Shown one piece after another: positions 25,076 to 33,691 of a DNA stretch of 64,000 bases. The position numbers and the translations under genes were made by a program. How positions within the stretch are numbered: position 1 is the first letter of the stretch; every line of letters starts with the position of its first letter. The stretch is taken from the NCBI GenBank assembly GCA_016191345.1, contig JACPOU010000051.1:17485-81484 (forward strand). Reading direction: 5' to 3'. The DNA comes from Chloroflexota bacterium. Lineage in GTDB: Bacteria > Chloroflexota > Limnocylindria > Limnocylindrales > CSP1-4. The notes under the pieces are model-generated. The model had not been told where the DNA came from. It saw only the letters and a list, made by a program, of their open reading frames with translations, and made no database searches.

Positions 25076-25141
25076 GGTTCGCCCGGGCCACCGTGGCCCC
25101 GTCCGAGGACGTGTTGTGCTAATGTGACGTGGTTGGCAAAT

Positions 25142-25153
25142 AATCTATAGATT
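25142..25153. promoter_or_regulatory. 12-bp perfect palindrome (AATCTATAGATT) in AT-rich promoter of the heme operon
   Basis: Exact palindrome in an otherwise GC-rich window, followed by TAGATTTAGGTAGATTT direct repeat, 11-22 nt before regulator start. Confidence 0.6.
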
Positions 25154-25163
25154 TAGGTAGATT

Positions 25164-25859
25164 TTGAAGCCTGCCGCGTCCCCCGCGATCGATTGGCTGA
25201 GTCTTTCCGAGGCCAGCCGGGTCCTCGGTGTCTCTCCCGCCACGGTTCGCCGCTGGGGCGATGCCGGTCGACTTCGAGTCTTCCTCACGCCCGGCGGTCA
25301 TCGTCGCTTCTCGCGGGCCGGCCTCGAGCGCCTGTTGCCGTCGGCTCGCCTCGGCCGGCCATCCCTCAGCAGCGCCGGGCTCACTCCTGCCCGGCTGTCG
25401 AGGTCCTATCGGCGGGTCAGCCGCGGCGTATCCGCCGAGCTCCCGTGGGTTCTCGCCCTGTCGGACGATCAACGGGAACTCTTTCGCGTTGAAGGTCACC
25501 TCCTGGCCGAACGGCTCCTGCAGCACCTCGAGGCCAGGGATCCGGAGATCGCGTCGGATCTGCTTCGAGACGCGGCCTCCAATGCCGCGAGGTACGGCCG
25601 GCTTGCGGTGTCGATCGGCCTGTCCCTGAGCCAGACCGTCGAAGGATTCCTCCGCTTCCGGGCGCCGTTCCATCGGGAACTCGCACTGGCGGCGCAGCGC
25701 CGAGGGTTCGACGCTCACGAAACGACATCGCTGCTCGCCTCGGCCGAGCGGGCGATGGACCAGCTCCTCGTCGCCACGATGACCGGACACAGCGTCGAGA
25801 CGGTGACGAACGGCCGTCGTGCCCGCCGGGTCGCGGGGGCACCCGGATCCCGACGGTGA
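25164..25859 (+). CDS. MerR/excisionase-type HTH regulator with C-terminal helical sensor-like domain, TTG start
   Basis: LSLSEASRVLGVSPATVRRWGDAGRLRVFLTPGGHRRFSRAGLERLL HTH; overlaps hemA by 4 nt. Confidence 0.8.
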   Translation: MKPAASPAIDWLSLSEASRVLGVSPATVRRWGDAGRLRVFLTPGGHRRFSRAGLERLLPSARLGRPSLSSAGLTPARLSRSYRRVSRGVSAELPWVLALSDDQRELFRVEGHLLAERLLQHLEARDPEIASDLLRDAASNAARYGRLAVSIGLSLSQTVEGFLRFRAPFHRELALAAQRRGFDAHETTSLLASAERAMDQLLVATMTGHSVETVTNGRRARRVAGAPGSRR

Positions 25860-27007
25860 GCGCGCCATCGGGTGAGATCATCGTCGTCGCGGCCCATGCG
25901 CGGCGCGTCCCAGCCCCGGCGCGTGCCGCCCTGGCCGAGGCGTTCCGGGCCGTGCGGGGCGACGGCCTCCTTCTCGAAACCTGCCACCGGGTGGAGCTCT
26001 ACCTTCCCTGGAGCCGGAGCGCGGAGGCCATCCCGGCCAACCTGCCGCCCGGCGTGGAGGTGTTGCGAGGTCCGGCCGCTGAACGGCATGCGTTGGAGGT
26101 CGCGGTCGGCCTCGATTCCGTCGTCCTCGGTGAGGACCAGATCCTCCACCAGCTCCGCACGGCACTCGCGAGCGCCCGGGCAGGCAGCCCCGTCGCCTCC
26201 GAGATCGATCGCCTCATGAGCCTGGCGCTGCGCGCCGGAAGGACCGCGCGCTCATGGCGCACCGGACCGGGGCGGACGCTGGCCGACGAAGCCCTCGATG
26301 CCTTCACGCGCCGGGGCATCCGGCTCGACGGCATGGACGTGCTGGTCGTCGGGACGGGCGAGATGGGCGAGCTGGCGGCGCTCCGTGCTCGTGCCGTCGG
26401 CGCACGGCCCGTCATCGCCAGTCGCTCGGCGGCCCACGCGGCCGCGAGCGCCGCCGCCCTGGGCGCGACAACAGTTGCCTTCGATCCGGGCGAGGCGGTC
26501 ACGCTGTTCGGCGCCATCGTCGTCGCCCTGGCCGGCCCGTGGCGACTGAGTCCCCCGACCATCGACAGGATCGCGAACGGGCCGGCGACGATCGTGGACC
26601 TTTCGATGCCGTCAGCCGTCCCGGACACATTGGTCCAAAGCCTCGGCGATCGCTACGTGTCCGTGGATGCGCTTGCCAGCGAGGCGGGCAACCCGGGCTC
26701 CTCGCGGGCCGGCGGGCGGGCCCGGGACCTGGTGGAGCGAACCCTTGTGGAGTTCGAGCGCTGGGCCGAGGGGTGGCAGCACCGAGCTGTCGCGCAGGCA
26801 CTCGTCGAGCGAGCCGAGGCGGAACGGAGCGCGCAGCTGGCACGGCTCTGGCTGGTCGCCCCCGAGATCGAGCCCGCGGCGCGCCTGGCAGTCGAACGCA
26901 TGAGTCGGCAGTTGACCGAGCGGCTCTTTCGGGAAGCGCTGGAGCGGCTCCGCCATGACCCGGAGGGCCGGCTCACATCGGCCGCGCGGGAGTTGTTCTC
27001 GCTATGA
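25856..27007 (+). CDS. hemA: Glutamyl-tRNA reductase
   Basis: LLLETCHRVELYLPW (catalytic Cys), GLDSVVLGEDQILHQLRTAL, DVLVVGTGEMGELAALRA. Confidence 0.92.
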   Translation: MSAPSGEIIVVAAHARRVPAPARAALAEAFRAVRGDGLLLETCHRVELYLPWSRSAEAIPANLPPGVEVLRGPAAERHALEVAVGLDSVVLGEDQILHQLRTALASARAGSPVASEIDRLMSLALRAGRTARSWRTGPGRTLADEALDAFTRRGIRLDGMDVLVVGTGEMGELAALRARAVGARPVIASRSAAHAAASAAALGATTVAFDPGEAVTLFGAIVVALAGPWRLSPPTIDRIANGPATIVDLSMPSAVPDTLVQSLGDRYVSVDALASEAGNPGSSRAGGRARDLVERTLVEFERWAEGWQHRAVAQALVERAEAERSAQLARLWLVAPEIEPAARLAVERMSRQLTERLFREALERLRHDPEGRLTSAARELFSL

Positions 27008-28713
27008 GTGGCGATGATGTCCGGGTCGGGACGCGCGGGAGTGCGCTGGCCATGGTCCAGGCCAACCTCGTGGCCGCGGCGCTCCTGCGCGTGGGGGCCC
27101 GGGCGAGCATCGTCGTCATCGAGACGGAGGGGGATCGCCGCCCGTCGGACCTGGCCTGGGGCGACGGCGTCTTCGTCGCCGCGATCGAGCGCGAGCTGCT
27201 CGCGGGCCGGATCGACGTCGGAGTGCACAGCGCGAAGGACCTGCCCACCGTGCTCGACCGCCGCCTCTCCATTGCGGCCTTCCTTCCGCGCGCCGATCCG
27301 AGGGACGCGCTCGTCGTCCGCGACGGAATGAACGGCCGTCTCGACGAGCTTCCGCCAGGGGCAAGCGTTGGAACCGACAGCCCGCGACGCACCGGCTTCC
27401 TGCTCGCGCATCGCCCGGACCTTGATGTCCGACCGATCCACGGCAACGTCGATACCCGACTGCGACGCATGGATGCGGGCGAAGTCGACGCGCTGGTCCT
27501 GGCCGCGGCCGGCCTGGACCGCCTTGGGCTCGCCAACCGCATTGGCGAGCGCCTCGATCCCGTGCTGGTTCCGCCTGCGCCGGGCCAGGGCGCGATCGCC
27601 GTGCAGGCACGCTCCGACGACCCGCTCGTCATGCTGCTCTCGAAGATCGACGACGCCGACACGCGACGCGCCGTCGAAGCTGAGCGGGACCTGCTGGCCG
27701 CGTGTGGCGGGGGCTGTCGATCGCCCATCGGCGCCCTCGCCCTGGCCGCCGGCGACCAGGTCGCCATCCAGGCCGGCCGAGTCGCGATCGACGGAACCGG
27801 CGCCCGCTCAGGGCGGCGCTCGGGACCGGCGGATGCGGTGCGGCAGATGGTCGCGGATCTCGCGGCGGTCGTATCGGCACCCGGCCCGTGGCGGCCCGAG
27901 GCGGCCGGCGCCGGACGGCCGAGACGCCCTCGCGTGATCGTCACGCGCCCCGAGGGCCAGGCCGGGGCGCTCATGGCTGCGTTGCGTGATGTCGCGCTGG
28001 ACCCGATCCCGACCCCGACGATCAAGGTTCACCTCGGTGCCCCTGACGGACCGCTCGACCGAGCGCTGCCGTGGATCGGAAGCTTCGCCTGGGTCGTCAT
28101 CACGAGCGCGAACGGCGCCCGAGCCCTGCTCGCGGCCGCGGAGCGGATCTTCACGCCGTTCGAGGCAACGCGCCTCGCGGCGGTCGGTCCTCAGACGAGG
28201 ATGGCCCTGGAAGCCGAGGGCGTCGACGTTGCGTTCCAGCCCACCGTCGCCACGGCCTCGGACCTCGGACGACAGTTGCCGATCACGGCGGGCGACGAAG
28301 TGCTGGTCGTGCGTGGTTCAACCGGTGGCGCGGAGCTGTCCGAGATGCTCGTTGCGCGCGGCGCGGTCGTCCACGAGGTTGTCGCCTACACGACCGAGGA
28401 GGCGCCACCTGAGTTCGGACGGCGTCTCCGGCAGGCCTTCGGCGAGGGTCCGGTGGCCGCCGCCGTCTTCACGAGCGGGTCCACCGTGCGAGGTCTCGTA
28501 CGGCTCGCCGCGACGGAATCGATCCGCGTGGGCGGCCTTCCCGCGATCTGCATCGGACCCGAGACCGCCGCGGCCGCCGCCGCCGCGGGGTTCGAGGTGG
28601 TTGGCGTGGCCGAGTCGACGGAACCAGCGGTTCTGGCCGAGACCGCGGCCCGGGCGATTCGGGTCCGATTGCCCGCCCCGCCGCTCGCGCCGGCCGGAGG
28701 TTCGCCACGATGA
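27004..28713 (+). CDS. hemC/hemD: Hydroxymethylbilane synthase / uroporphyrinogen-III synthase fusion
   Basis: VRVGTRGSALAMVQANLV, GVHSAKDLPT, CGGGCRSPIGA; then RPRVIVTRPEGQAGALMAAL...VVITSANGARALL...AVFTSGSTVRGLV. Confidence 0.93.
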   Translation: MSGDDVRVGTRGSALAMVQANLVAAALLRVGARASIVVIETEGDRRPSDLAWGDGVFVAAIERELLAGRIDVGVHSAKDLPTVLDRRLSIAAFLPRADPRDALVVRDGMNGRLDELPPGASVGTDSPRRTGFLLAHRPDLDVRPIHGNVDTRLRRMDAGEVDALVLAAAGLDRLGLANRIGERLDPVLVPPAPGQGAIAVQARSDDPLVMLLSKIDDADTRRAVEAERDLLAACGGGCRSPIGALALAAGDQVAIQAGRVAIDGTGARSGRRSGPADAVRQMVADLAAVVSAPGPWRPEAAGAGRPRRPRVIVTRPEGQAGALMAALRDVALDPIPTPTIKVHLGAPDGPLDRALPWIGSFAWVVITSANGARALLAAAERIFTPFEATRLAAVGPQTRMALEAEGVDVAFQPTVATASDLGRQLPITAGDEVLVVRGSTGGAELSEMLVARGAVVHEVVAYTTEEAPPEFGRRLRQAFGEGPVAAAVFTSGSTVRGLVRLAATESIRVGGLPAICIGPETAAAAAAAGFEVVGVAESTEPAVLAETAARAIRVRLPAPPLAPAGGSPR

Positions 28714-29747
28714 GCGTTGACCTGACGGGCATGCCCGCGAACGCGCCCTCCGGAGGCGACCTCCCCCTGCCCTCGATCCGGCTCCGCCGGTTACGGGGCA
28801 GTGAGCGAATCCGGCGACTCGTCCGGGAGACGCGGATCGACCCCGCGATGCTGGTGGCGCCGCTGTTCGTCTGCGCGGGGAGTGGCGTCCGCGAGCCGAT
28901 CGGGTCGATGCCCGGCGTGGCGCGTCTATCGCCGGATCTCGCCGCGATCGAGGCGGAGACGCTCGCGGCACTCGGGGTCGGGGGCCTCCTCCTGTTCGGC
29001 CTGCCTCGGGGCAAGGACCCGATGGGATCCGAGGCGTCGGCCGACGACGGTGTCGTCCAGGACGCGTTCTCGCGGATCCGCTCGCTCCAGCTTCCGATCG
29101 TGACGATCGCCGACACGTGCCTGTGCGAGTACACCGACCATGGCCACTGCGGGCCGCTCACGCGGTCGGGTGAGGTGGACAATGACGCGGCCCTCGAGCG
29201 TCTCGCCGCCACCGCCGTGAGCCAGGCCCGGGCCGGCGCCGACATCGTCGCCCCGAGCGCGATGATGGATGGCCAGGTGGCGGCGATCCGGGCGGCGCTC
29301 GACGGCGCGGGCTTCCAGGGCACGCCGATCATGGCCTACGCCGCAAAGCACGCCTCCGCGTTCTACGGGCCCTTTCGGGAAGCCGCCGGGAGCGCGCCGG
29401 CCCTCGGCGACCGGCGGGCCTACCAGATGGACCCGACGAATGGGCGCGAGGCGATGCGAGAGATGGCGCTCGACGTCGCGGAGGGCGCGGACCTGCTGCT
29501 CGTCAAGCCGGGCCTGCCGGGTCTCGACCTGATCGCCGCGGCGCGGCAGCGGTTCGACCTCCCGATTGCCGCATACCAGGTGAGCGGCGAGCACGCGATG
29601 ATCGCGGCCGCCGCCGAACGCGGCTGGATCGATCGTCGCAACGCGACGCTCGAGGCCGTCGGGGCCATGGTCCGGGCCGGCGCCGGGATCGTCGTCACGT
29701 ACGCTGCCGGCGATATCGCCCGGTGGCTGGCGGACGAGCGATCGTGA
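28710..29747 (+). CDS. hemB: Porphobilinogen synthase
   Basis: RRLRGSERIRRLVRETRIDPAMLVAPLFV, ADTCLCEYTDHGHCG, MAYAAKHASAFYGPFREAAGS, LLVKPGLPGLD. Confidence 0.96.
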   Translation: MSVDLTGMPANAPSGGDLPLPSIRLRRLRGSERIRRLVRETRIDPAMLVAPLFVCAGSGVREPIGSMPGVARLSPDLAAIEAETLAALGVGGLLLFGLPRGKDPMGSEASADDGVVQDAFSRIRSLQLPIVTIADTCLCEYTDHGHCGPLTRSGEVDNDAALERLAATAVSQARAGADIVAPSAMMDGQVAAIRAALDGAGFQGTPIMAYAAKHASAFYGPFREAAGSAPALGDRRAYQMDPTNGREAMREMALDVAEGADLLLVKPGLPGLDLIAAARQRFDLPIAAYQVSGEHAMIAAAAERGWIDRRNATLEAVGAMVRAGAGIVVTYAAGDIARWLADERS

Positions 29748-30433
29748 CGGACCCCGCCAGCACGTACGTCCAGGCCCTGGCACTCAGCCTCGATCCGGCC
29801 TGGCGTCGACGCTCCGATGACCGCCGCCGTCGCGAGGCCGCCTCGTTCTCGGATCTCCTGTCTCGCCCGGACGTGCCGCCGATGCGAACCATGGCCTACA
29901 GCTCCATCGGCATCGAGCCGGGCGTGGACCTGCTCCTGTGGCGCCGCGCCGACTCTGTCGATGCGCTCGAGGAGGCCGCCGCCGCCGTGCTCCGGACGGG
30001 CCTCGGGCGATGGCTCGAGGTCCGCCACTCCCTGCTCGGCCGGATCGGCCCGTCACAGTACGTCCGCAAGCCGACCGAACAGGAGCAGTCGCCGTTCGAC
30101 GGCGCGCGATCGCGCTACCTGATCGTCTATCCGTTCACGAAGAGCACGGACTGGTACCTGCTGCCCGCTGAGGCCCGGCAGGGGATCATGAACGAGCACA
30201 TGCGGGTGGGCCATCAGTACCCGATGGTCCGCCAGGCGTTGGCGTACTCCTTCGGGCTGGACGGGCAGGACTTCGTCGTGGCCTACGAAACCGACGATCT
30301 GCCCGCGTTCGGAGATCTCGTCCGGGCGCTGCGTGCCACCGAGAGCCGCCGCTCCACCGTCAACGACAATCCCATCCTTCTCGGAGTCCATCGCCCCGCC
30401 GGGGAGATCCTCCATCTCCTGGGTGCGCCGTGA
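29744..30433 (+). CDS. hemQ: Coproheme decarboxylase / chlorite dismutase-like (HemQ/ChdC), GTG start
   Basis: YPFTKSTDWYLLPAEARQGIMNEHMRVGHQYPMVRQALAYSFGLDGQDFVVAYETDD. Confidence 0.93.
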   Translation: MTDPASTYVQALALSLDPAWRRRSDDRRRREAASFSDLLSRPDVPPMRTMAYSSIGIEPGVDLLLWRRADSVDALEEAAAAVLRTGLGRWLEVRHSLLGRIGPSQYVRKPTEQEQSPFDGARSRYLIVYPFTKSTDWYLLPAEARQGIMNEHMRVGHQYPMVRQALAYSFGLDGQDFVVAYETDDLPAFGDLVRALRATESRRSTVNDNPILLGVHRPAGEILHLLGAP

Positions 30434-31722
30434 CGACCGCGCCAACGACAGCCGGCGTTTCGTCGGATCTCGTGCGTCGGGCCGAGAGCCTCTTTCCGGG
30501 CGGCGTGAACAGCCCCGTTCGCGCGTTCCGATCCGTGGCCCGGCCGCCCCTCCTCCTCCAGCGCGGCAAGGGGCCCCATGTCTGGGATGTGGACGGCCGC
30601 CGATACATCGACTACATCGGGTCGTGGGGCCCCGCCATCCTCGGTCATGCCGACGCCGGAGTGATGGCGGCCATGTCGTCGGCCCTGAGCGACGGCCTGG
30701 CGCTCGGAGCGACCCATCCGCTCGAGATCGAGCTCGGCGAGGCCATCCGCTTGGCGATGCCCTCGATGGAACGGCTGCGCTTCACGTCGTCCGGCACGGA
30801 AGCGGTCATGTCCGCCGTGCGCCTCGCCCGTGCCGCGACGGGCCGCGACCTCATCGTCAAGTTCGGGGGCGGGTACCACGGTCACGCGGACCATCTCCTC
30901 GTGAACGCCGGTTCGGGGATCGCGACGCACGGGATCCCGGGCAGCGCCGGCGTGCCCGACGGCGTGGCTGCGCTGACGGTCGTCCTGCCCTACAACGATC
31001 GGGGAGCCGTCGAGGCAGCATTCCGCATCCACCGCGGGCAGGTCGCGGCCGTGATCGTGGAGCCCGTGGCCGCCAACGTCGGCGTCATCCCGCCGGTGCC
31101 CGGATTCCTGGAGACGGTGCGGGCCGTGACCGCCGCGGACGGAGCGCTGCTCATCTTCGATGAGGTCATCACCGGCTTTCGCCTCGGTCGTGGCGGGGCC
31201 CAGGGTCTGATGGGCATCACGCCCGACCTCACGACGCTCGGCAAGATCATCGGCGGCGGCATGCCCATCGGAGCGTACGGCGGCCGGGCGGACCTGATGG
31301 CGATGATCGCGCCCTCGGGTCCCGTCTACCAGGCCGGCACCCTGTCAGGGCATCCGCTCGCGATGGCGGCCGGAATCGCCACGCTCGCCGCGTTGACGCC
31401 GGAGCGCTACGAGGCCCTGGAGGCGACGGCCGCCGGGCTCGAAGCGGGGCTCAGGAGCGTGGCCGCCGCACCCGGCGGTCGCATCGCCCTGGCGCGTGTC
31501 GGATCCCTCCTGACGGTCTTCTTCGCGGACGAGCCGCCGGTCAATGCCGGTCAGGCTCTGGCCGCCGACCGCTCGGCGTTCACGCGGTTCTTCGGACAGA
31601 TGCTGGACAGGGGAGTCCTCCTCCCGCCGTCGCCATTCGAAGCGTGGTTCGTCTCCATGGCCCACGGCCGTGACGAGATCGCCGCGACCATCACCGCCGT
31701 CACGGAGGCATTGACTGAATGA
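30430..31722 (+). CDS. hemL: Glutamate-1-semialdehyde 2,1-aminomutase
   Basis: AESLFPGGVNSPVRAFRSV, RFTSSGTEAVMSAVRLARAATGRD, FDEVITGFRLGRGGAQ, GGGMPIGAYGG. Confidence 0.96.
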   Translation: MTTAPTTAGVSSDLVRRAESLFPGGVNSPVRAFRSVARPPLLLQRGKGPHVWDVDGRRYIDYIGSWGPAILGHADAGVMAAMSSALSDGLALGATHPLEIELGEAIRLAMPSMERLRFTSSGTEAVMSAVRLARAATGRDLIVKFGGGYHGHADHLLVNAGSGIATHGIPGSAGVPDGVAALTVVLPYNDRGAVEAAFRIHRGQVAAVIVEPVAANVGVIPPVPGFLETVRAVTAADGALLIFDEVITGFRLGRGGAQGLMGITPDLTTLGKIIGGGMPIGAYGGRADLMAMIAPSGPVYQAGTLSGHPLAMAAGIATLAALTPERYEALEATAAGLEAGLRSVAAAPGGRIALARVGSLLTVFFADEPPVNAGQALAADRSAFTRFFGQMLDRGVLLPPSPFEAWFVSMAHGRDEIAATITAVTEALTE

Positions 31723-32762
31723 GTGACCGCTTTCTCCGAGCCTGCCGCCGCGAGGCAGTCGACGCGACACCTGTCTGGTTCATGCGCCAGGCCGGTCGGA
31801 CCTTTCCCGCCTATCGCGCCCTGCGCGAGCGCCATGGGATCCTCGAGCTCGCGAAGAATCCGGAGCTATGTGCCGAAGTGACCCTCATGCCGGTCCGCGA
31901 GCTCGGCGTGGACGCTGCGGTCATGTACGCCGACATCATGCTGCCGCTCGAGCCCATGGGCGTCGACCTGCACATCGAGCCCGAGGTCGGCCCGATCATC
32001 GAGCGACCGCTCCGGACCATGGCCGACATCGAGGCCCTCCGAAAGCTCGATCCAGCTGTCATCGAATCCACCCTCGAGGCGATCCGGCTCGTCCGAAGGG
32101 AGCTGGAGGGCAGGGCCGCCGTCATCGGCTTCAGCGGCGCACCGTTCACCCTCGCCTGCTACCTCATCGAGGGCCGGCCATCGCGTGACTATGCGATGGC
32201 CAAGGCGTTCATGTATGGACAACCGGCCGCATGGCACGCCCTGATGGATCGCCTGTCGGAAATGGCGATCGCGTACCTGCGGGCCCAGGTCGAGGCCGGT
32301 GCCCAGGTGGTCCAGCTGTTCGACAGCTGGGTCGGCGGGCTTGCCCCGGCCGACTACGAGGCCTTTGTCCAGCCGTACGTCCGGCGCATCGACGAGGCGC
32401 TGGCGGGCGTCCCGACGATCCTCTTCGGAACGGGTACCGCCTCCCTGCTCGAGCTGACCGCGGCGTGTGGCAGTGACCTCGTCGGGGTCGATCACCGGAT
32501 CTCGCTCGCCGATGCCTGGGCGAGGATCGGGTTCGACCGCGGCATCCAGGGGAACCTGGACGGCGCGCGCGTGCTCGCCGGCTGGGACGCCACCGAAGCG
32601 GGCGCCCGGCGCGTCCTCGACGAGGCAGCGGGCCGGCCCGGCCACGTGTTCAATCTCGGTCACGGCGTCCTCCCGGGCAGCGATCCGGCGATCCTTCGTC
32701 GGCTTGTCGACTTCGTGCACGAGACGACCGCTCGCGTGGACCTCGCGGCGGCCACGGCATGA
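31719..32762 (+). CDS. hemE: Uroporphyrinogen decarboxylase
   Basis: TPVWFMRQAGRTFPAYRALRERHGI, GFSGAPFTLACYLIEGRPSRDY, GHGVLPGSDP. Confidence 0.96.
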   Translation: MSDRFLRACRREAVDATPVWFMRQAGRTFPAYRALRERHGILELAKNPELCAEVTLMPVRELGVDAAVMYADIMLPLEPMGVDLHIEPEVGPIIERPLRTMADIEALRKLDPAVIESTLEAIRLVRRELEGRAAVIGFSGAPFTLACYLIEGRPSRDYAMAKAFMYGQPAAWHALMDRLSEMAIAYLRAQVEAGAQVVQLFDSWVGGLAPADYEAFVQPYVRRIDEALAGVPTILFGTGTASLLELTAACGSDLVGVDHRISLADAWARIGFDRGIQGNLDGARVLAGWDATEAGARRVLDEAAGRPGHVFNLGHGVLPGSDPAILRRLVDFVHETTARVDLAAATA

Positions 32763-33691
32763 GCGACCTGCCGGCTGATGCCGGCGTCCTCCTGATGACG
32801 TACGGCTCGCCGGACACGATGGAGGAAGCGGATGTCGCCGCGTACCTCGCGAAGGTCCGGGGAGGCCGAACGCCGAACGCCGAGCTCGTCACGGAGTTCG
32901 CCCGGCGCTACCAGGTCATCGGCGGGTCGCCGCTGGTCGAGATCACGGCTCGGCAGGCGGCCGCCCTCGCGGCGCACCTCCATCGGCCCGTCCGGGCGGC
33001 GATGCGGTTCTCCGAGCCGACCATCGAGCGAGCGCTCCGCGTCCTCGCGGCAGAGGGTGCCCGGCGGGTCGTCGGGATCGTGCTGTCACCGCAGTACTCC
33101 CCGATGCTGATGGGAGGCTATGGACGAGACATCGAGGCGGCGCGGGACCAGATCGGCCCCGGGGCCCCCGCCGTCCGGATGGCGGGGGAGTGGTGGGCGG
33201 AGCCGGAATTCATCCGGGCCCTCGCGATGCGCGTCCGGGCCGCGCTGGCGCGACTCGGCGAGACGGAGCGCCGCAGTGTGGCCGTGCTCATGACTGCCCA
33301 CAGCCTGCCGCGTCATGTCGCCGAGCAGGAGCCGGGGTACCTGGAGCAACTGCGCGGCACTGCCCTCGCCGTCGCGGCTGCCGCCGGGCTCCCGGACGAT
33401 GCCTGGCAGTTCTGCTGGCAGAGCGCAGGGCACGAGCCGGGCGAATGGATGCAGCCCGATCTCAAGGATCTCGTGGGTGACCTGGCAGCGACCGGCCGGA
33501 GCGCGATCCTGGTCGTCCCGGTCCAGTTCCTGGCCGACCACCTCGAGGTGCTGTACGACATCGATGTCGGCGCCAGGGAGCAGGCTGCCGTTGCCGGGAT
33601 CGGGTTTGCGCGCATCGGCTCCCTCAACGACGATCCGGCGCTCGTCGCGGCACTCGGAAACGTCGCTCGCCGGACCCTGATGCCTGCCTGA
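32759..33691 (+). CDS. hemH: Ferrochelatase (coproporphyrin type by context)
   Basis: VLLMTYGSPDTMEEADVAAYLAKVRGGR, VVGIVLSPQYSPMLMGGY, MTAHSLPRHV. Confidence 0.92.
   Translation: MSDLPADAGVLLMTYGSPDTMEEADVAAYLAKVRGGRTPNAELVTEFARRYQVIGGSPLVEITARQAAALAAHLHRPVRAAMRFSEPTIERALRVLAAEGARRVVGIVLSPQYSPMLMGGYGRDIEAARDQIGPGAPAVRMAGEWWAEPEFIRALAMRVRAALARLGETERRSVAVLMTAHSLPRHVAEQEPGYLEQLRGTALAVAAAAGLPDDAWQFCWQSAGHEPGEWMQPDLKDLVGDLAATGRSAILVVPVQFLADHLEVLYDIDVGAREQAAVAGIGFARIGSLNDDPALVAALGNVARRTLMPA

Follow-up and report, generated by a model that had tools for sequence, protein, structure and literature searches.

A regulator with a BldC-type HTH and a putative heme-less-globin-like domain at the head of a heme operon in Chloroflexota: a candidate autogenous switch

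The first gene of a heme-synthesis operon in a Chloroflexota bacterium encodes a protein in which a helix-turn-helix (HTH) is followed by about 150 residues that have no Pfam match. What does this protein control, through which DNA site, and what might it sense? We approached these questions in the window, i.e., the whole 64-kb stretch of DNA that was analyzed (72% GC), and by comparison with homologues throughout the phylum. The features are as follows:

25117-25125, + strand: predicted extended −10, TGCTAATGT (TGnTAnnnT), with a predicted transcription start at about 25132
25142-25153, no strand assigned: palindrome AATCTATAGATT, judged incidental
25148-25164, + strand: predicted operator, direct repeat TAGATTT-AGG-TAGATTT with a 10-bp period, conserved in relatives
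25164-25859, + strand: regulator gene, 231 aa (open reading frame with a TTG start)
25194-25337, + strand: winged HTH of BldC/MerR type, residues 11-58 (HTH_17, HTH_BldC, BldC profile, Foldseek)
25386-25811, + strand: all-helical C-terminal domain, residues 75-216, sensor-globin/RsbRD_N-like (AlphaFold, Foldseek, hhalign, conservation)
25856-27007, + strand: hemA, glutamyl-tRNA reductase (PF05201, 3.9e-20)
27004-28713, + strand: hemC-hemD fusion (PF01379, 4.4e-66; PF02602, 7.9e-43)
28710-29747, + strand: hemB (PF00490, 6.5e-129)
29723-30433, + strand: hemQ/chdC-like, chlorite dismutase family, Cld (PF06778, 7.6e-46)
30430-31722, + strand: hemL (PF00202, 4.5e-63)
31719-32762, + strand: hemE (PF01208, 4.3e-119)
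32759-33691, + strand: hemH/cpfC, ferrochelatase family (PF00762, 2.7e-65)

The operon and the HTH of its first gene

The genes run in the order regulator, hemA, hemC-hemD fusion, hemB, hemQ, hemL, hemE and hemH, with every start overlapping the preceding stop; the overlap of 4 nt between the regulator gene and the start of hemA (25856) is as the original prediction had it. The same prediction spoke of a complete heme operon. The listed genes are indeed present in that order, but "complete" is too strong because a gene for coproporphyrinogen/protoporphyrinogen oxidase is lacking from the operon, and a genome search with a HemY-type model gives nothing above threshold, only weaker matches. The coproporphyrinogen oxidase gene is missing from the operon despite the presence of hemQ and ferrochelatase (31719-33691).

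The excisionase/MerR-type HTH that had been proposed is found at residues 11-58, which match the Pfam models HTH_17 (1.4e-10) and MerR (1.2e-6). HTH_BldC is matched at 1.9e-12, with a score of 46.8 bits that lies below the NCBIfam cut-off of 77, and all 39 members of the protein family match this model (best 1.3e-13). The closest solved structures are those of BldC, both in a PDB profile search, where the family profile matches BldC 6ama (7e-11), and in Foldseek, where the regulator model matches BldC-DNA structures at the HTH with probability 1.0.

BldC of Streptomyces (6ama, 6amk) binds head to tail on AT-rich direct repeats that are one helical turn apart and variable in number (PMC5859096). 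The two proteins share the winged HTH with its GGHRR wing motif, and the predicted sites of the regulator resemble those of BldC in being direct repeats with one-turn spacing and variable repeat number. However, BldC is a developmental regulator of 68 residues without a sensor domain, and its consensus AATTxxxx(C) is unlike the TAGATTT repeats of the regulator promoter. The regulator, at 231 aa and with a conserved 150-aa C-terminal domain, thus departs from the stand-alone layout of BldC (~70 aa). It also departs from the classical MerR layout, which couples a dimerization coiled coil with a palindromic operator in a 19-20 bp spacer between −35 and −10, since inverted repeats are not enriched and the predicted operator sits downstream of the predicted −10. 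CarH and the other MerR-type photoreceptor repressors (5c8d; 8jbs) likewise carry a C-terminal sensor after a related HTH, and the ligand of the CarH family is of tetrapyrrole type (B12), but the regulator has no B12-binding domain, and its C-terminal domain is predicted to form just one bundle of helices.

Distribution and gene neighborhoods

A search with the window protein gives matches at E ≤ 1e-8 in 75 of the 107 genomes of the same taxonomic family, some of the weakest being to the HTH only. With a profile of 39 sequences, 110 of 177 genomes in the class and 219 of 400 in the phylum yield relatives, most of which are full-length and which usually number one or two per genome. A scan of genome contigs yielded two loci only, including one in a Chloroflexia MAG (L001), and viral contigs gave HTH-level matches only.

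The original prediction made the protein a regulator of the heme operon, and synteny across the phylum supports this. Leaving aside one separate clade (the P clade, below), almost every homologue in the window's own taxonomic family heads hem genes. Where the operon is split or has lost a gene, the regulator remains beside part of it: it precedes hemC where hemA is absent (L041, L053, L054), hemB-hemQ in L061 and hemH in L074, and at L062, L064 and L072 each half of the operon has its own copy, hemA following one and hemQ the other, in divergent orientation. An H-type regulator and ferrochelatase occur together in 52 genomes of the family, one without the other in 5 and 9, and neither in 41 (Fisher p = 3e-15, a nominal value given related and in some cases incomplete genomes). 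Of the 63 genomes outside the class where both hemA and the regulator can be located, 28 have the two no more than 6 kb apart, and 17 of 21 families hold at least one such genome; given a target of about 12 kb in several Mb, chance alone would be expected to produce well under one. Mapped on a tree of 142 homologues, hem linkage requires 14 changes, compared with 46.7 when labels are shuffled. Comparison thus establishes both the position at the head of the operon and the linkage throughout the phylum.

The partners are not always those of the window. Several distant loci have the order regulator-sirC-hemA(-ccsB)-hemC, L295 has regulator-ahbD, and L297 has regulator-ahbC-TIGR04053/ahbD-like radical SAM-hemA. 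The order in L303 is regulator-ahbC-ahbD-siroheme decarboxylase-hemA, where ahbC and ahbD were assigned by eye from their likeness to L295 and L297. In family f16 a PUCC-like transporter gene directly follows the regulator at all three loci examined (tested for L294, called by sequence likeness for L299 and L305), which suggests a role in bacteriochlorophyll or light-harvesting supply.

A sizeable minority of members (P clade, f3-f5, f10, f16, f47 and f74) lies elsewhere, those other than f16 being mostly not beside hem genes, and so one observation that the original prediction named as telling against it, homologues mostly away from hem genes, is partly borne out. The P clade (G000:C1:16305-16910 = L117:7315-7959; L098, L101-L103, L105-L116) is a second clade with the same kind of direct repeat, in which the regulator is followed at many loci by a membrane protein of ~340-380 aa (the one tested had no Pfam match). 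In f4 (L232-L240 and related loci) many regulators have a GAGATTCGCCTAGATTT-like repeat and stand before a gene for an M20-family amidohydrolase/peptidase. P-clade genes are also present where the genome gives no match to ferrochelatase. Given this and the placement of some clades away from hem genes, a tetrapyrrole may not be what every member senses.

The C-terminal domain and its possible signal

The original prediction described a helical C-terminal region recalling RsbRD-N or globin-like sensors. In an AlphaFold model built from two sequences, though more than 140 homologues are known, residues 75-216 are all-helical, within a bundle of long helices (pLDDT 70 and pTM 0.59 overall; C-terminal domain mostly pLDDT about 75-90). 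For this part Foldseek finds the globin sensor AfGcHK (probability 1.0; TM 0.61, normalized to the target) as well as DosC, pXO1-118 and BpeGReg, all globin-sensor matches having E near 0.05-0.25; the domain folded alone gives weaker and mixed matches. Profile comparison with hhalign matches RsbRD_N at E = 1.5e-4 with a probability of 51% (0.15 and 0.4% for the reversed control) and gives no match to the heme globin-coupled sensors (PF11563). In a Pfam search 7 of the 39 family members hit RsbRD_N (PF14361) weakly (E of 1 or less, 0.0042 in the best case), and the source genome, the window protein included, has no match at the gathering score of 24.3 bits. A PDB search with the family profile returned HTH matches and nothing significant for the C-terminal domain. 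The hhalign and Foldseek results lend modest support to the predicted resemblance, and we tentatively place the domain closest to the heme-less sensor globins and RsbRD_N.

Like these domains (RsbR, pXO1-118, the N-terminal domain of MabR, photoglobins), which it resembles in profile and in a globin-like fold by Foldseek, the predicted sensor lacks the heme-ligand His. The known examples belong to stressosome, PucR or B12 proteins; the regulator instead carries the domain behind a BldC-type HTH. Nearly invariant in the domain of the regulator are R108, G111, R166 and D199 (the last in 97%).

What would such a domain report on? We find it plausible, if short of probable, that the cue reaching the regulator is a general one (oxygen, redox, stress, light or energy state) and that heme is merely an output of the operon under its control. 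The similarity to RsbRD_N fits this explanation, for which RsbR-type globins and Rex would be the models: heme-less globins with other roles are known, MabR being an example of one that acts as a sensor (PMC11617747), and in Streptomyces the autoregulatory repressor Rex heads hemA-C-D-B (PMC5355995). The family members beside non-tetrapyrrole genes point the same way. However, the partners that recur in distant families are tetrapyrrole genes whose routes differ in their chemistry (hem, sirC-hem, ahb, PUCC), and for this reason a pathway-specific signal fits better. The parallel with rex-hemACD(B) lies in an autogenous repressor gene placed first in a heme operon, repression being in our case an inference. 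The two differ in that Rex has an unrelated NADH-binding fold, a palindromic operator and many targets, whereas the sequences suggest essentially one target for the regulator.

Another reading is a classical heme-responsive repressor whose C-terminal domain binds heme directly. The content of the operon and the fold resemblance to heme globin sensors would suit it, as would two partly conserved positions, H209 (63%) and residue 121 (Y or H in 79%). It is nevertheless unlikely: Ala148, which aligns with the heme-ligand His of globins (YGRLAVSIGL against the globin motif IGEIHVRIGL, aligned by eye), is Ala in 61% and Leu in 19% of 141 homologues, so that the GxxHxxIG signature of globin-coupled heme sensors is absent from the regulator. 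No His outside the HTH is invariant among the homologues, and the profile comparison favors RsbRD_N over the heme-binding sensors. Because heme-less sensor globins exist and some of them, the photoglobins or photocobilins, bind linear tetrapyrroles (PMC10979010, PMC10151467), a tetrapyrrole ligand held without His ligation is possible by analogy.

A predicted direct-repeat operator and the proposed switch

The regulator gene was originally predicted to have an autoregulatory operator in a rare AT-rich island, consisting of a palindrome and a repeated TAGATTT. The island is real: GC is 0.35 over 25135-25174, a value reached by only 0.04% of the 40-bp windows. TAGATTT occurs exactly twice in the window, both times in the direct repeat, and the second copy overlaps the TTG start codon by its first base (25164). 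The exact pattern TAGATTT-N3-TAGATTT is a single site in the whole source genome, where the paralogue is preceded by a site with two mismatches.

In a promoter alignment TAGATTT-N3-TAGATTT recurs in relatives. A weight matrix built from 15 close sites scores at p ≤ 0.005 against dinucleotide shuffles in 70 of 128 homologue promoters, and the best site of the entire locus falls in the region upstream of the regulator at 74 of 114 loci (1.1 expected). Counting half-sites without the matrix in 143 homologue promoters, which are related and therefore not independent, we find same-strand pairs at 10 bp in 99 cases against 0.2 expected, at 20 bp in 29 (0.4 expected) and at 30 bp in 8 (0.5 expected), and no peak of inverted half-sites in either arrangement. 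About a third of the promoters have chains of 3-4 repeats at a loose threshold. When up to one mismatch is allowed, the 107 genomes hold 13 copies of the pattern (control 0), and 12 of the 13 sites are directly upstream of a regulator-family gene, so that by comparison the conserved direct repeat is nearly exclusive to the promoters of this family. Since sites are confined in this way and the exact site is unique in its genome, the regulator's own operon is probably its one main target.

Repeats of this kind also precede P-clade genes, the gene at L001 and, among the f4 genes examined, roughly one in two, so autoregulation appears ancestral. Some hem-linked clades have no recognizable repeat (e.g., L064 minus strand, L289, L308, L309). 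The 13th genome-wide site (L315, G082 C103:27475-27491) is a displaced promoter/operator copy before an unrelated gene, possibly a promoter capture. At L295 three TAGATTT-like repeats with a 10-bp period (TTTAGATTTTATTAGATTTTGACAGATTT) lie before ahbD, between it and the regulator, and not before the regulator. In the subclade L091, L092, L094, L095 and L073, GAGCGATTT-like repeats with a ~9-bp period, clearest in L094, replace the 10-bp TAGATTT repeat.

TAGATT also matches TAnnnT and the sequence is AT-rich, and the repeats might on that account be −10 hexamers instead of a protein operator. This is improbable given arrays of 2-4 repeats at an exact 10-bp period, a separate extended −10 upstream in many relatives, and the restriction of the site to regulator-family promoters. 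In the window a strict scan for a sigma70 consensus finds no match, and the predicted extended −10, TGCTAATGT, stands 22 nt before the direct repeat. TGnTAnnnT is enriched in the 60 nt ahead of the repeat (26 of 82 homologue promoters, 1.7 expected), with 22 nt the commonest gap between TAnnnT and repeat. The predicted operator would lie at about +16 to +32 relative to the predicted transcription start. The palindrome AATCTATAGATT does exist at 25142-25153, but a symmetric dimer bound to it is very hard to credit: in the promoter alignment only the window has it, inverted half-sites show no enrichment, and with 64 perfect 12-bp palindromes in the window such sequences are common by chance. The predicted operator thus stands on the conserved direct repeat and not on the palindrome.

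These comparisons give good support to autogenous control of the heme operon by this protein, and because the gene heads the operon in distant relatives with a conserved site in front, it is very probably the switch that sets tetrapyrrole (here heme) production in these bacteria. Our preferred reading, which we hold with fair confidence, is of a one-component regulator that binds the direct repeats of its own operon, senses supply and represses. The BldC-type winged HTH would bind head to tail on the 10-bp-spaced TAGATTT repeats, just downstream of the operon's promoter and overlapping the regulator start codon. The heme-less-globin-like domain would receive a signal, which most likely reports on tetrapyrrole supply and would alter how well the protein oligomerizes on the repeats. 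Bound regulator would block transcription, thereby holding itself and the pathway enzymes at a set level. Repression is likelier than activation because the predicted operator lies downstream of a conserved extended −10.

A bolder and more doubtful extension is that a phylum-wide family combining a BldC-type HTH with a heme-less globin senses porphyrin, siroheme or heme without His and autoregulates through a helical head-to-tail array. A literature search of incomplete coverage found no description of this regulator, and as far as the literature searched shows, control of heme synthesis in Chloroflexota is undescribed. The type of HTH and the kind of sensor fold are already known; the combination and the target would be new, and the family spans the phylum. 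The family is a candidate heme regulator with a precise, conserved and directly testable predicted operator. It would extend the direct-repeat binding mode of BldC to sensor-bearing proteins and provides a means of finding out which signals heme-less sensor globins respond to. If the bolder extension is true, this would be a general tetrapyrrole regulator of the phylum, serving heme, siroheme-dependent heme and perhaps bacteriochlorophyll branches.
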